DNA of 64,000 bases, from contig ONJS01000006.1 of NCBI GenBank assembly GCA_900318205.1, forward strand, positions 62,001 to 126,000, given 5' to 3'. The position numbers and the translations under genes were made by a program. The stretch comes from an uncultured Prevotellaceae bacterium. Its GTDB lineage: Bacteria; Bacteroidota; Bacteroidia; Bacteroidales; Muribaculaceae. Shown here piece by piece: positions 8,765 to 60,792 of the stretch (the first letter of the stretch is position 1; each line of letters starts with the position of its first letter). Below the pieces are notes generated by a model, which saw only the letters and a list, made by a program, of their open reading frames with translations, was not told where the DNA came from and did no database searches.

Positions 8765-8782
8765 TCTAGACCATCTAGAATG
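8765..8782. repeat. Two-unit TCTAGNNNN nonamer repeat
   Basis: Two adjacent 9-bp units, TCTAGACCA and TCTAGAATG, lie in the gap between the glycosyltransferase and GH57 genes. This is the shortest member of the nonamer family also at 15238, 37739 and 39314. Confidence 0.5.
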
Positions 8783-15237: not shown

Positions 15238-15273
15238 TCTAGAGCTTCTAGAATATCTAGTTTTTCTAGTTTC
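15238..15273. repeat. Four-unit TCTAGNNNN nonamer array
   Basis: The units TCTAGAGCT, TCTAGAATA, TCTAGTTTT and TCTAGTTTC lie head to tail at exactly 9-bp spacing, just after the GH3 fusion stop codon. Confidence 0.7.
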
Positions 15274-30194: not shown

Positions 30195-30659
30195 ATGGTG
30201 GAGTTGAATTTACCGGAATATGAGTATAAGGTGAAGAAGCGGGAGGATGGCTCGTGGGCCATCTGGGACCGCCTTAGGGAGCGCTGGGTGGCACTCACGC
30301 CCGAGGAATGGGTGCGGCAGCACTTTGTCGAGTGGCTGATTACCGAGAAGAAGTTCCCCGCAGCGCTCATGGGTAACGAGGTGTCGCTCACCCAGAACGG
30401 CATCGCGCGGCGCTGCGACACCGTTGTCGCCGACCGCACGGGCCAGCCGCTGGTCATCGTGGAATACAAGGCGCCGAGCATCCATGTCACGCAGAAGGTG
30501 TTTGACCAGATTGTGCGTTACAACATGGTGCTGAAAGCGCGCTACCTTATCGTGAGCAACGGCCTGGAGCACTACTGCTGCCAAATCGACTACGAGAACA
30601 ACAGTTACCGATTCCTGGAGGACGTGCCATGCTATCGTGAGTTAGGAGTTAGGAGTTAG
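30195..30659 (+). CDS. Small PD-(D/E)xK protein, type I restriction HsdR N-terminal-like
   Basis: A 154-aa protein matching the HSDR_N_2-type domain that stands alone in many Bacteroidetes. Residues about 75-95 contain the nuclease-fold motif RRCDTVVADRTGQPLVIVEYKAP, with D and E-x-K arranged as in PD-(D/E)xK enzymes. No helicase or specificity subunit is nearby, so restriction is not implied. The frame is open upstream, but 30195 is the first Met after the promoter box. The last residues (ELGVRS) and the stop codon are written by the heptamer repeat at 30642, so the natural C-terminus may have been replaced. Confidence 0.8.
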   Translation: MVELNLPEYEYKVKKREDGSWAIWDRLRERWVALTPEEWVRQHFVEWLITEKKFPAALMGNEVSLTQNGIARRCDTVVADRTGQPLVIVEYKAPSIHVTQKVFDQIVRYNMVLKARYLIVSNGLEHYCCQIDYENNSYRFLEDVPCYRELGVRS

Positions 30660-30732
30660 AAGTTAGGAGTTAGAAGTTAGGAGTTGGGAGTTAGGAGTTA
30701 GAAGTTAGGAGTTAGGAGGTGGGAGTTAGGAG
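30642..30732. repeat. Thirteen-unit TTAGRAG heptamer array
   Basis: Thirteen head-to-tail 7-bp units, mostly TTAGGAG and TTAGAAG (two read TTGGGAG and GTGGGAG). The array overlaps the 3' end of the gene at 30195 and provides its stop codon. The same unit occurs at 48390 and 60758. Confidence 0.85.
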
Positions 30733-30793
30733 TTATTCTCTTATTTTGGATAACATTTTTCACAAAATGGTTGATTAATTCGTGGATTTCTTA

Positions 30794-35671: not shown

Positions 35672-38044
35672 ATGAATGAAGATTATCTGGAGAAACTGAA
35701 TGAACAGCAGCGGGCCGCCGTCGAGTATTGCGACGGACCGCAGTTGGTGATTGCCGGTGCAGGGTCGGGAAAGACACGTGTGCTGACTTATAAAATCGTG
35801 CACCTGCTCAAGCAGGGGTATGAACCATGGCGCATCATGGCACTCACCTTCACCAACAAGGCTGCCCGTGAGATGCGCGAACGCATCGAACCGCTGGCGG
35901 GTCCCGAGGTTGCCGCCCAACTGTGGATGGGCACCTTCCACTCCATTTTCTCCCGCCTGCTGCGCCGCAATGCCGATCGCATCGGCTTCAAGAGTGATTT
36001 CACCATCTATGACCAGAGCGACTCGCGCTCCCTCATCAAGCTCATTGTCAAGGATATGGGCCTTGATGACAAGGTCTATAAGCCGGCAAGCATACAGACG
36101 CAGATCAGCAATGCCAAAAACGCCCTTATCACGCCCGAGGATTATGCCCGCAACCAGGCGCTCATCGATGCCGACCGTGACGCACAACGTCCCGAGACCG
36201 CCAGCATCTACAACGCCTATTGGAGCCGCTGCCGCATCGCCGGAGCGATGGACTTTGACGACCTGCTGCTCTATACCAATATCCTGCTGCGCGACCATGA
36301 GGACGTCCTGGAGCAATACCAGGAATTCTTCCGCTACATCCTCGTTGACGAGTACCAGGACACCAACTTCTCACAGCACCTGATTGTTCACCAGTTGAGC
36401 AAGAAATACAACCGCCTGTGCGTTGTGGGCGATGATGCCCAAAGCATCTACAGTTTCCGTGGCGCCAACATCGACAACATCCTCAGGCTGCAACGGTTCT
36501 ACCCTGATATCAAGACCTTCAAGTTGGAGCGCAATTACCGCTCTACACAAAATATCACCGAGGCCGCCAACAGCCTCATTGAGAAGAACAACCGACAGAT
36601 TGCCAAGCACTTGTTCAGCAAGAACGCCATCGGTGACCGCATTCCCGTCATCCAGTGCTTCAGCGACTATGAGGAGGCCTATGTTGTCGCCAACCAGATT
36701 GCCGCATTGAAGGCACGGCAGGGCGACAGCTACGAGGACTACGCCGTGCTGTACCGCACCAATGCCCAGTCGCGCGTGCTGGAGGAAGCCCTGAGCAATG
36801 GAGGTCGCCGCGACAAGCACGGCAATATGCGCAGTGCAATTCCTTACCGCATCTATGGTGGCTTGTCGTTCTACCAGCGCAAGGAAGTGAAAGATGCCAT
36901 CTGCTACCTGCGCCTGATCATCAACCCCGACGATGACGAGGCGCTGAGACGTGTCATCAACTACCCGTCGCGCGGCATCGGCGATACCACAGTAGGGAAA
37001 ATCACCCACTGCGCCACGCAGAACGGCGTGAGCCTGTGGCAAGTCATCAACAATCCCGAGCCAAACGGGCTGAACGTGAACCGCGGCACCCTGACCAAAC
37101 TGGAAGGCTTCATCACGCTGATGAAAGGACTCATCGAGTTGAACCAGAATGGCGGTGATGCACTGACGGTAGCCAAAGAAATGGTCAAGCAGACCCGCAT
37201 CAAGAGCGTGCTACTGGGTGATAACACACCCGAGAACATCAGCCGCATCGAGAACCTTGACGAGTTGGTAAACGCTGTAAACGACTTCCAGCAAATCAAG
37301 GAGGAAAGCGGCGACGAGCATTACCAGATCGGCGATTTCCTCGCCGAGACCTCGTTGCTTACCGACCAAGACATGAACGACCCCGACGGCGAGAAAGTCA
37401 CCCTGATGACCGTTCACGCCGCCAAGGGCCTGGAGTTCCGCAACGTCATCATCGTGGGCGTAGAGGAAGACCTGTTCCCGAGCGCCATGAGTGCCGGCTC
37501 TCTGTACCAGATTGAAGAGGAGCGACGCCTGTTGTATGTCGCCATCACGCGTGCCGAGGTGAACTGCATCATCACCTATGCCACCTCGCGCTACCACAAC
37601 GGACAGACCAAATCGTGCGTGATGAGCCGCTTCTTGCGTGACATCGCGCCCGAATACCTGCTGATGGGCAGTACCAATTCGGCACCCGTTCCGTCACGCA
37701 AACGAGTCAATAGATGGGATGATGACCTGGAAACTCCCCCTAGACCTTCTAGGCCATCCAGTCCATCTAGGCCCTCTAGTCCATCTAGGCCCTCTAGCCA
37801 ACCACGACCCGACACCCCATCACGGCCCGCTGCGACACCACCGCAAGCTCCCGCTAGCGGCAACTTCACGATTCATACGGTTGATGAATTGAAGGTGGGA
37901 AGAGAAATCTTGCATCAACGGTTTGGACGCGGGACTGTTACCAGTATCGACACCAGTGGCGACGCCAAGATTGACGTCATGTTTACTGACGGGCAGACGA
38001 GAAAACTGCTGCTGAAATTCGCAAAATTTGAGATACTTAATTGA
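35672..38044 (+). CDS. UvrD/PcrA-type ATP-dependent DNA helicase
   Basis: A superfamily 1A 3'-5' helicase of 790 aa. The Walker A GAGSGKT is at 29-35, the Walker B/motif II DEYQDTN is near 227, and motif III-IV (GDDAQSIYSFRGA, LERNYRS) and VTLMTVHAAKGLEF (motif V) follow. The C-terminal Tudor-like domain (VGREILHQRFGRGTVTSID) that binds RNA polymerase in PcrA is present. Between helicase core and Tudor is a disordered S/R/P linker. Residues 690-710 of it are encoded by seven perfect codon-register TCTAGNNNN nonamers (37739-37801). Function is excision repair and replication-transcription conflict. Confidence 0.95.
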   Translation: MNEDYLEKLNEQQRAAVEYCDGPQLVIAGAGSGKTRVLTYKIVHLLKQGYEPWRIMALTFTNKAAREMRERIEPLAGPEVAAQLWMGTFHSIFSRLLRRNADRIGFKSDFTIYDQSDSRSLIKLIVKDMGLDDKVYKPASIQTQISNAKNALITPEDYARNQALIDADRDAQRPETASIYNAYWSRCRIAGAMDFDDLLLYTNILLRDHEDVLEQYQEFFRYILVDEYQDTNFSQHLIVHQLSKKYNRLCVVGDDAQSIYSFRGANIDNILRLQRFYPDIKTFKLERNYRSTQNITEAANSLIEKNNRQIAKHLFSKNAIGDRIPVIQCFSDYEEAYVVANQIAALKARQGDSYEDYAVLYRTNAQSRVLEEALSNGGRRDKHGNMRSAIPYRIYGGLSFYQRKEVKDAICYLRLIINPDDDEALRRVINYPSRGIGDTTVGKITHCATQNGVSLWQVINNPEPNGLNVNRGTLTKLEGFITLMKGLIELNQNGGDALTVAKEMVKQTRIKSVLLGDNTPENISRIENLDELVNAVNDFQQIKEESGDEHYQIGDFLAETSLLTDQDMNDPDGEKVTLMTVHAAKGLEFRNVIIVGVEEDLFPSAMSAGSLYQIEEERRLLYVAITRAEVNCIITYATSRYHNGQTKSCVMSRFLRDIAPEYLLMGSTNSAPVPSRKRVNRWDDDLETPPRPSRPSSPSRPSSPSRPSSQPRPDTPSRPAATPPQAPASGNFTIHTVDELKVGREILHQRFGRGTVTSIDTSGDAKIDVMFTDGQTRKLLLKFAKFEILN
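37739..37801. repeat. Seven-unit TCTAGNNNN nonamer array inside the helicase gene
   Basis: Seven consecutive 9-bp units (first CCTAGACCT, then TCTAGGCCA, TCCAGTCCA, TCTAGGCCC, TCTAGTCCA, TCTAGGCCC, TCTAGCCAA). The array starts exactly on a codon boundary, so each unit encodes a triplet such as Ser-Arg-Pro or Ser-Ser-Pro. Confidence 0.85.
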
Positions 38045-38048
38045 GATA

Positions 38049-38160
38049 TTAGACGTTAGACTTTAGACGTTAGATTTTAGACGTTAGATTTTAGACGTTA
38101 GACGTTAGACTTTAGACGTTAGATTTTAGACGTTAGACGTCAGATATTAGACTTTAGACA
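38049..38160. repeat. Sixteen-unit TTAGANN heptamer array
   Basis: Sixteen exact 7-bp units (TTAGACG, TTAGATT, TTAGACT and one TCAGATA) fill the gap between the uvrD-like stop (38042-38044) and the nspC start (38163). The helicase stop codon itself lies in a diverged unit (TGAGATA). Confidence 0.9.
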
Positions 38161-39313: not shown

Positions 39314-39358
39314 TCTAGATGTTCTAGATGATCTAGATAATCTAGAACACACTAGACA
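39314..39358. repeat. Five-unit TCTAGNNNN nonamer array
   Basis: The units TCTAGATGT, TCTAGATGA, TCTAGATAA, TCTAGAACA and the diverged CACTAGACA lie between the convergent nspC and plug-protein genes. Their TCTAGA palindromes could pair with each other as hairpins. Confidence 0.8.
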
Positions 39359-46977: not shown

Positions 46978-48177
46978 TTAGCGACGATGTCCGCCACCAC
47001 CTGATGATCCGCTATGGCCACCGCCACCGCCAGAGCTGCGACCGCCGCCACTGCTGCCGCTGCTATATGAGCCACTGCTGCCGCCGTAGCTGCCGCCAGA
47101 ACGGCTACCACTACTGTAACTGCTGCCGGAACGGCCACCGCTGTAGCTGCCGCTGGAGCGTCCGCTGCTGCTGTAGCTGCCTGAACGACCGCTACTGCTG
47201 GAACGGCTGCCGCTGTAGCCGCTACTGTTGCGAGGTGATACGCCGCTGTTGGTGCGGGAACCCATGTTGCCGCTGCCACGGCCGGTAGCATAGCCACCAC
47301 GACCACGACCGGTAGTGTTGCCCACGCTGGGACGGTTGCCATCGGTGCCGCGTGCCGAGATGCCGTTGCGGCTGGTTCCCCTAGCATCTACACGAGGACG
47401 GGTGTTACGATTGGTTGCCAGGCCGCTACGTTGTCCGAGCGTGCGTCCCGAATAGCCGTCATAATGAGGCCTGCCGGGACGGACGTGGCCGCCAGTATTG
47501 CCATGCCATGCCCAGTCATTCCAGCCGTGGTGATAACCACTACCCCAATACCAGTGAGTATGTCCCCAGTACCAGGGAGAGTAAGTCCAGCCCCAGTAGT
47601 GATAAGGACGATACCAGCTGTAATAATACGGTGAATACCAGGGATACCAGGAATGCCAGGAGTACCAGGGATCATACCATCCCGTATACCAGGGATAATA
47701 GCTCGAGGCCCATCCGTAGTATGAGCCATAGCCCCAGTCGCTGCCCACGATCAGGTTGATGCTGGGAGACTCGTCATAGTAGAGCTCGATCAGGTCATCA
47801 TCACTGCTCAGGATCACAATGTCAGGATTATAGAAACGCTCAATCAAGTGGGTGTTGGCAAATGCCTCCTCATAGATTGTGTCTCCATAAATCGTGTCAC
47901 CGTTCAGATCAATAGCATACTCTGGATCATAGGCGCCGCGACGGTTATACTCGTCCACGTCGCGCTCATCGCGGTAATTACTCTGGGCGGTCACCTTGTA
48001 AGTGTCGGGAACCTCGCCATAGACAGCAATCGTCTTGACTGGCTTCTCGACCTTAGTCTTCTTGACCGTCGTAGACTTAGAAGCATCGTAATAGATGTCG
48101 TCGTAGTCTTGTGCTTGAAGGATGGAGCCGGCACTCAAGGCCAGCAGTCCCACCAGTGTTAAAATACGGTACTTCAT
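46978..48177 (-). CDS. Exported Trp/Tyr-rich then Ser/Gly-rich low-complexity protein
   Basis: A 399-aa protein with signal peptide MKYRILTLVGLLALSAGSILQAQ. Residues about 24-147 are an acidic domain with GDTIYGDTIYEE and IERFYNPDIVILSSDDDLIELYY. Residues about 148-226 contain roughly 18 Trp and even more Tyr in alternating WY/PWY/SWH patterns. From about 235 the chain is Gly/Ser/Arg-rich (SGSYSSGRS-type repeats) to the end, GGGHRR. I recognise no enzyme motif. It may be an envelope-associated or adhesive structural protein. It is first of a two-gene unit with the FadL-like protein. Confidence 0.75.
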   Translation of the reverse strand: MKYRILTLVGLLALSAGSILQAQDYDDIYYDASKSTTVKKTKVEKPVKTIAVYGEVPDTYKVTAQSNYRDERDVDEYNRRGAYDPEYAIDLNGDTIYGDTIYEEAFANTHLIERFYNPDIVILSSDDDLIELYYDESPSINLIVGSDWGYGSYYGWASSYYPWYTGWYDPWYSWHSWYPWYSPYYYSWYRPYHYWGWTYSPWYWGHTHWYWGSGYHHGWNDWAWHGNTGGHVRPGRPHYDGYSGRTLGQRSGLATNRNTRPRVDARGTSRNGISARGTDGNRPSVGNTTGRGRGGYATGRGSGNMGSRTNSGVSPRNSSGYSGSRSSSSGRSGSYSSSGRSSGSYSGGRSGSSYSSGSRSGGSYGGSSGSYSSGSSGGGRSSGGGGGHSGSSGGGGHRR

Positions 48178-48389: not shown

Positions 48390-48508
48390 TGAGGAGTTAG
48401 AAGTTAGGAGTTAGGAGTTAGAAGTTAGGAGTTAGAAGTTAGAAGTTAGAAGTTAGAAGTTAGAAGTTAGAAGTTAGGAGTTAGGAGTGAGAAGTGAGGA
48501 GTGAAAAG
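48390..48508. repeat. Seventeen-unit TTAGRAG heptamer array
   Basis: Seventeen 7-bp units, mostly TTAGAAG or TTAGGAG, with end units decayed to TGAGGAG, TGAGAAG and TGAAAAG. The array is oriented as at 30642. Confidence 0.85.
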
Positions 48509-48522
48509 TTTGCATCCGGCAT

Positions 48523-48578
48523 CTAACGTCTAAAGTCTAAAGTCTAATGTCTAAAGTCTAACGCCTAATGTCTAAAAA
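48523..48578. repeat. Eight-unit CTAANGT heptamer array, inverted type
   Basis: Eight 7-bp units (CTAAAGT, CTAATGT, CTAACGT and a final CTAAAAA). Read on the other strand they are ACNTTAG, the same family as the array at 38049. It starts 14 bases after the TTAGRAG array and ends 5 bases before the trmN6 promoter octamer. Confidence 0.85.
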
Positions 48579-60753: not shown

Positions 60754-60757
60754 TCAG

Positions 60758-60792
60758 TTAGGAGTTAGAAGTTAGGAGTTAGGAGTTAGGGG
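60758..60792. repeat. Five-unit TTAGRAG heptamer array
   Basis: TTAGGAG, TTAGAAG, TTAGGAG, TTAGGAG and TTAGGGG, beginning 5 bases after a stop codon. Same family and orientation as at 30642 and 48390. Confidence 0.8.

Follow-up and report, generated by a model that had tools for sequence, protein, structure and literature searches.

A pcrA/uvrD-type SF1 helicase gene lies on the forward strand at 35672..38044 of the window, the whole 64,000-nucleotide stretch of DNA that was analysed. Its product of 790 aa gave profile matches to PF00580 and PF13361, and the top NCBIfam match was TIGR01073 (pcrA) at 750 bits, below the equivalog cut-off of 911. The gene called uvrD-like in an earlier reading of this DNA (the first-pass annotation) is thus a PcrA/UvrD helicase. 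Seven 9-bp units in codon register occupy 37739..37801 on the same strand (PRPSRPSSPSRPSSPSRPSSQ; codons 690−710), and these 63 bp (7×9) are translated as PRP SRP SSP SRP SSP SRP SSQ. The first-pass annotation had described seven TCTAGNNNN units starting on a codon boundary; the boundary (37739, codon 690) and the layout of 7×9 bp were confirmed, but exact TCTAG was present in only five of the seven units, unit 1 reading CCTAG and unit 3 TCCAG. Tandem Repeats Finder scored a period of 18 bp at 89, one of 27 bp at 74 and one of 9 bp at 60, and the preference for 18 bp over 9 bp makes SRPSSP the better repeat unit.

The Tudor-like domain that had been placed just behind this linker was found downstream of the array as a match to PF21196 (37895..38023, forward strand, residues 742−784), although its 21.8 bits fell just below the cut-off of 23.9. 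The 9-bp unit keeps the reading frame, and the linker had been considered disordered. In agreement with the latter, the region between the helicase core and the Tudor domain is described as natively disordered in PcrA, where it is poorly conserved (PMC5397179), and as highly disordered in UvrD (PMC7585439).

The linker in the sister species and the genus

The linkers of the best 30 of 88 UvrD matches in the genus were read, comprising the source genome, its sister species (G054) and 28 others. The array was present in two species only, the source and the sister. The sister array also consists of seven units and differs at 9 of 63 bases (three in the cores and six elsewhere), with four amino-acid differences within the array. 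Both linkers are 78 aa long and fall within the range of the 28 others (72−91 aa), so the array gave no net length. The proposal that copy number varies the length of the linker was therefore not borne out in these two species.

S-R-P or S-S-P was present in 21 of the 28 other linkers and missing from seven. The 30 motifs in these linkers comprised 13 encoded as TCN AGR, 11 as TCN CGN and six S-S-P, the TCN AGR class being made up of TCA AGG (five), TCA AGA (three), TCG AGG (three), TCC AGA (one) and TCT AGG (one). According to the first-pass annotation, S-R-P linkers in distant relatives without arrays would point to ordinary protein-level selection. Such linkers were found among the closer, array-less members of the genus, but outside the genus the linkers were variable and, judged by eye, not S-R-P-rich. 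TCTAG itself was absent from all 68 linkers read among 80 named relatives (63 plus five more, three partial), some of them conspecific with other genomes read; the named relatives were mostly Muribaculaceae, Prevotellaceae and Bacteroidales MAGs, many from rumen.

In the source genome, TCT accounts for 6% of Ser codons (about 12% of TCN) and AGA and AGG together for 12% of Arg codons, which gives exact TCTAG in the linker a low prior. Runs in which one 5-mer, whatever its letters, recurs at least four times every 9 bp were found twice within genes and 24 times between genes in 464 kb of this genome, a sample of stretches partly picked around arrays. One of the two in-gene runs, that of uvrD, has the same core as the repeat that predominates between the genes of this genome, and the second is CCAGG at 47638. 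The latter run (CCAGG×4, window 47638−47669) has a Trp/Tyr-rich reading. Within the coding sequence of the same sample, CTAG pairs 9 bp apart numbered four, all inside the uvrD array.

The gap between uvrD and nspC is filled by a 7-bp TTAGACN array, identified with Tandem Repeats Finder at 38049..38159. This gap measures 118 bp in the source genome and 70 bp in the sister, both with the array, while at the 28 other genus loci it is at most 51 bp and array-free. Among the 30 loci, the 7-bp array thus marks the same two species only, which indicates that the locus was repeat-active.

Intergenic TCTAG arrays

Relative to the base composition, CTAG is depleted in the window, with 40 occurrences seen versus approximately 248 expected. 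Arrays of the 9-bp unit had been reported at 8765, 15238 and 39314. All three exist and are intergenic, but the first has only two units of TCTAGA (8765..8779, 12 bp behind a stop codon). The second is a four-unit TCTAG array (15238..15269, 9 bp behind a stop codon), and the third has four TCTAGA units with a shifted ACTAGA (39314..39356) and lies between the convergent nspC and T9SS plug genes. The genome-wide count of three-unit runs that had been proposed as a check was clear: both strands of the 3.62-Mb genome gave 61+79=140 overlapping matches to TCTAGN4TCTAGN4TCTAG and none to the reversed control, the arrays being far fewer than 140 since overlapping matches to a palindromic core count one array repeatedly. 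The pattern occurs in 81 of 101 genomes of the genus. In a family-wide sample it was found in 48 of 297 genomes, namely 45/54 within the genus and 3/243 outside. The 9-bp TCTAG arrays are therefore a real family of repeats that is found mainly in this genus. With regard to viral carriage, a four-unit version of the pattern matched four stretches in a viral collection.

To place the arrays relative to genes, those with at least three units were located in stretches of 22 genomes, mostly picked around a subset of the array matches and additionally around uvrD; genes were called by our own codon-score script rather than a trained gene finder. In total, 118 arrays were located. The suspected excess in gaps was evident, 116 being intergenic (112 of those bordered by a stop codon on one side or both), whereas in-gene placement was restricted to the uvrD linker and the orthologous linker of the sister. 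The gaps were of the types stop-start (48), start-stop (47), stop-stop (13) and start-start (4), with one side unknown for four. Start-start gaps thus held 4 of the 112 arrays with both sides known, compared to an expectation of 19% from gap length (p 9e-7) or 12% from gap count (p 0.002), p-values that are too small because arrays common to related species are not independent. The distance from array to nearest stop codon had quartiles of 10, 28 and 60 bp (n=112). A role as rho-independent terminator was not supported, as the 20 nt behind the arrays on the sense strand were A-rich (47%) and not T-rich (25%).

The 432 intergenic units can be summarized as TCTAGANNN, with T at position 1 (0.83) and A at position 6 (0.86) followed by three free, A/T-rich bases; the CTAG is constant by the way the arrays were found. 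The spacers made use of 55 of the 64 possible triplets. Neighbouring intergenic CTAG pairs within 40 bp were exactly 9 bp apart in 93 of 107 cases, counted in array-chosen stretches. Spacer identity was 0.41 between adjacent units and 0.51 between units four apart, above the 0.31 found between arrays, and duplication has therefore left some trace. Complementarity of neighbouring spacers was also considered, but the identity to the reverse complement was 0.24, giving no signal.

The units in uvrD differ from these in make-up, with most of their variation at positions 6 and 9. In the source array, positions 1−5 and 7−8 are constant in at least six of the seven units; in the sister, position 8 is constant in only four. 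CC at positions 7−8 was found in six of seven units in the source and four of seven in the sister, compared to 5/432 intergenic units on one strand and 7/432 on the other. Conversely, A at position 6 occurs in one of seven and three of seven units, respectively, and in 380/432 intergenic units. The variation in uvrD is accordingly a codon pattern, since positions 6 and 9 are free and the CC of proline is mostly kept.

For change between species, 13 orthologous arrays with at least three units in both the source and the sister were compared. After the alignments were reread, unit number was equal in four pairs, clearly different in six and unclear in three; the counts made by script differ in nine pairs, with L158, L164 and L172 representing decayed cores or small shifts. 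Aligned spacers matched at 79 of 126 bases, versus 0.44 for unrelated arrays, and the 600-bp flanks, which are largely coding, were mostly 83−98% identical, with a single flank at 70%. Two arrays had identical spacers and one a single-base difference. At L160:9953, all five TCTAGA cores were kept while the spacers matched at only 3 of 12 bases, with 600-bp flanks that were 92% identical. Two sister spacers of another pair read as the inversion of two source spacers, and one sister array stands opposite decayed cores in the source genome. Across the four equal-length pairs, 93 of 96 core bases and 26 of 36 spacer bases matched, figures that overstate core conservation and under-represent decayed arrays because the pairs were found via arrays with intact cores.

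Two further arrays were of note. Sixteen near-identical CCTAGAATC/T units in G021 (L262 from 2000) look like a recent pure expansion amid variable spacers. An intergenic 9-bp array with another core, ACGGA×11, is present in the source genome at L160 18437−18584.

7-bp arrays and ORF cassettes in the gaps

Three 7-bp features were found elsewhere in the window: an inverted pair of arrays at 48395..48576, AGTTAGR then TCTAANG; a GAGTTAG array overlapping the end of an ORF at 30639..30735; and an AGTTAGG array just behind a stop codon at 60756..60790. In G000, AGTTAGR 7-bp arrays directly adjoin TCTAGA arrays in the same gaps (C13:28359, C13:31538 and C16:139916). Between genes, identical 5-mers are spaced 7 or 9 bp apart or a multiple of these, and rarely at any other distance up to 40 bp, the 9-bp peak being inflated because the stretches were chosen around 9-bp arrays; coding sequence exhibited a period of three only.

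The contents of the nspC gap, inspected by eye, vary across species: TCTAGA arrays in some, 9-bp ACGGA arrays in two and 10-bp inverted arrays in three. In further species it holds short unremarkable DNA or, in three including the sister, a GxxExxY gene (confirmed). Coordinates suggest that this gene is in the nspC gap of G053, G064, G081 and G084 as well. At one gap, a seven-unit TCTAGA array in the sister corresponds to an ORF in the source genome that encodes a PF05635 four-helix bundle and is flanked by inverted 7-bp arrays. PF05635 is the family of 23S rRNA intervening-sequence proteins. To our knowledge, PF05635 and PF13366, the GxxExxY family, are both widespread families of small proteins whose role is unsettled.

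Inverted arms were then scored against shuffled sequence. Arms above the 99% shuffle line flanked 26 of 31 GxxExxY (PF13366) loci, with six in the direct-repeat control (3/34 left out), and 28 of 30 PF05635 loci, again with six in the control (2/32 left out). The loci were the best-scoring matches, nearly all one per genome (five GxxExxY and three PF05635 in the source genome). The shuffles superseded earlier tests against other loci, which share related arms and had placed 11/34 and 12/34 above a 95% line. The best internal period of the GxxExxY arms was 9 bp in 21 of 26, although weak (identity of at least 0.55 in one), and 23 of the 28 PF05635 loci had a best period of 7 or 14 bp. Of 27 GxxExxY loci from other genera of the phylum, 18 had arms, compared to nine in the direct control (2/29 left out). 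The cassette loci examined span L175−L208, L305−L307 and L312−L340. Upstream of the ORF of L208, apparent hairpins without an ORF, made of inverted AATTCG-type 9-bp units, resembled miniature cassettes by eye.

None of the 66 loci in the genus had a TCTAG array as a cassette arm, and only L181 has an array of at least two units in the flanks examined, approximately 900 bp from the ORF. GxxExxY as a required partner of TCTAG arrays was rejected, since G092 has no GxxExxY match yet 55 TCTAG matches. TCTAG arrays were absent from 3/6 genomes without GxxExxY versus 9/55 with it (p 0.08), and from 8/10 genomes without PF05635 versus 8/71 with it (p 1.5e-5, kinship ignored), both tallied by hand. 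With no TCTAG arm in 66 loci and the array-rich G092 lacking GxxExxY, TCTAG arrays are linked to cassettes by pitch and place only. It is a speculative and rather doubtful proposal that the intergenic short-pitch arrays all belong to a single system of small elements that are mobile or rewrite themselves. The PF05635 cassettes (inverted arms with a 7-bp pitch) and those of PF13366 (inverted arms with a pitch of approximately 9 bp) would be part of it, the dispersed 7- and 9-bp arrays, TCTAGANNN included, would be ORF-less members spread or rewritten by the cassette machinery, and the uvrD array would be the only copy caught in a gene.

Origin of the in-gene array and comparison with known systems

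The first-pass annotation had regarded the array as a noncoding repeat process creating protein sequence. This was not supported, in view of the single in-gene site, in two sister species, among 118 arrays, together with the codon-shaped variation and the S-R-P/S-S-P of 21/28 relatives. On balance, the array in uvrD and those in the gaps are probably two separate things that share five letters: an ordinary in-frame duplication in a disordered linker, and a REP-like element of the genus with the unit TCTAGANNN. It is the codon-shaped variation that carries the argument for ordinary duplication, supplemented by S-R-P in array-less relatives. Ser-Arg-Pro/Ser-Ser-Pro codons would have been duplicated in frame before the source and sister species split, and synonymous change to TCT with strand slippage of 9 or 18 bp could have given rise to the TCTAG units. 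The protein may tolerate the array as the linker would only tether the Tudor domain. In the gaps, neighbouring TCTAGA cores may work as units that fold into hairpins or cruciforms and are maintained either by selection or through some copying process, with the spacers being replaced as arrays slip, invert between their palindromes or exchange sequence with one another. The arrays might survive behind genes because an insertion is least damaging at such positions. Counted against ordinary duplication are the rarity of TCT, the fact that one of only two in-gene runs has the main core, and the adjacent 7-bp array.

These observations, along with the exact TCTAG in five of seven units at a 9-bp pitch and the confinement of coding CTAG pairs at 9 bp to the uvrD array, could instead reflect a shared process, in which DNA-level amplification of CTAG-cored 9-bp units hit a chance TCTAG and protein selection then shaped the Pro spacers. 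We regard this as possible but less likely: a single orthologous site within genes contrasts with 116 arrays between genes, the unit make-up in uvrD is unlike that of the gaps, and the protein motif is also found in relatives without the array. Unit number was also unchanged in uvrD and clearly different in 6/13 intergenic pairs, although this is weak evidence because 4/13 of the intergenic pairs are equal too. Selection on the protein for S-R-P repeats, for example as a binding or modification motif, with the DNA pattern as a by-product, would account for the recurrence of S-R-P/S-S-P with varied codons in 21 of 28 linkers of the genus. It is judged unlikely, given that the motif is missing from the other seven, that linkers outside the genus are variable and by eye not S-R-P-rich, and that four amino acids differ between source and sister inside the array. 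Insertion or gene conversion of an intergenic TCTAG array into the linker in frame, in the style of Rickettsia palindromic elements (RPEs), has precedents in RPEs that lie in frame within genes (PMC10969869) and in REPs reported from repair genes, that of the UvrD/REP helicase among them (PMC3733652). It is nevertheless highly improbable here, as linkers of 78 aa within a range of 72−91 aa leave no net insertion and the uvrD spacers are mostly CCN, which was seen in 5/432 intergenic units.

Read as an ordinary duplication, the uvrD array is a warning that a shared 5-mer and codon register cannot alone derive protein from a noncoding repeat. The intergenic arrays are stranger than the in-gene one: they occupy 3' gaps with palindromic cores and changeable spacers, and the gaps of relatives can hold small ORFs enclosed by inverted arrays of short pitch. 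The family keeps a palindromic core at strict pitch while sister species differ in spacers and in the number of units, and with approximately 100 genomes of the genus one can trace gap by gap how REP-like elements arise, spread and are lost. If the 7- and 9-bp arrays do belong with the PF05635 and PF13366 cassettes, both protein families would gain a place among mobile elements.

In the literature searched, which omits most subscription literature, no description was found of TCTAGA nonamer arrays or of PDDEXK_3 with inverted repeats. The passage found on GxxExxY was unrelated to cassettes, and among the best-ranked matches on repeats in Muribaculaceae and Bacteroidales none concerned such arrays by title. 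Already published are REPs that lie downstream of genes or within those for UvrD/REP helicase (PMC3733652), in-frame RPEs (PMC10969869) and heptamer arrays (PMC4679880).

REP elements of the GTAG/CGTC type are described in Di Nocera 2013 (PMC3733652) as palindromic, mostly between codirectional or convergent genes, downstream of coding regions and occasionally intragenic, with UvrD/REP helicase named among the repair proteins that carry them. Hallmarks of this type are a tag tetranucleotide at one end of a 20−40 bp palindrome and an associated RAYT tyrosine transposase. TCTAG arrays are similarly palindromic-cored, extragenic and downstream of coding regions (116/118 intergenic; 4/112 start-start). 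However, their unit is 9 bp and occurs in arrays, and no GTAG or CGTC tag was present in the conserved part of the 432 units. RPEs are insertions of approximately 150 bp with a conserved peptide, found in frame in genes according to a passage of PMC10969869. The uvrD array shares with them a noncoding palindromic repeat in frame within a gene, but it involved no net insertion, and the four amino-acid differences between source and sister leave no fixed peptide.

TAACTGA heptamer arrays are, according to MacGregor 2015 (PMC4679880), short tandem units in gaps that are longer than those of relatives, with a few inside ORFs; they also occur in Bacteroidetes, and in the main genome studied the unit is exact and mostly just upstream of start codons. 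The 7-bp arrays of the window resemble this kind, whereas TCTAGANNN differs in its position behind stop codons, its free spacers and its 9-bp pitch. Intragenic tandem repeats in disordered linkers have units that are a multiple of 3, low complexity and codon-shaped variation. The uvrD array departs from these in having the same unit number in both species compared (7 and 7), and otherwise agrees with them in its unit length, its S/R/P low complexity and variation that follows codon positions.
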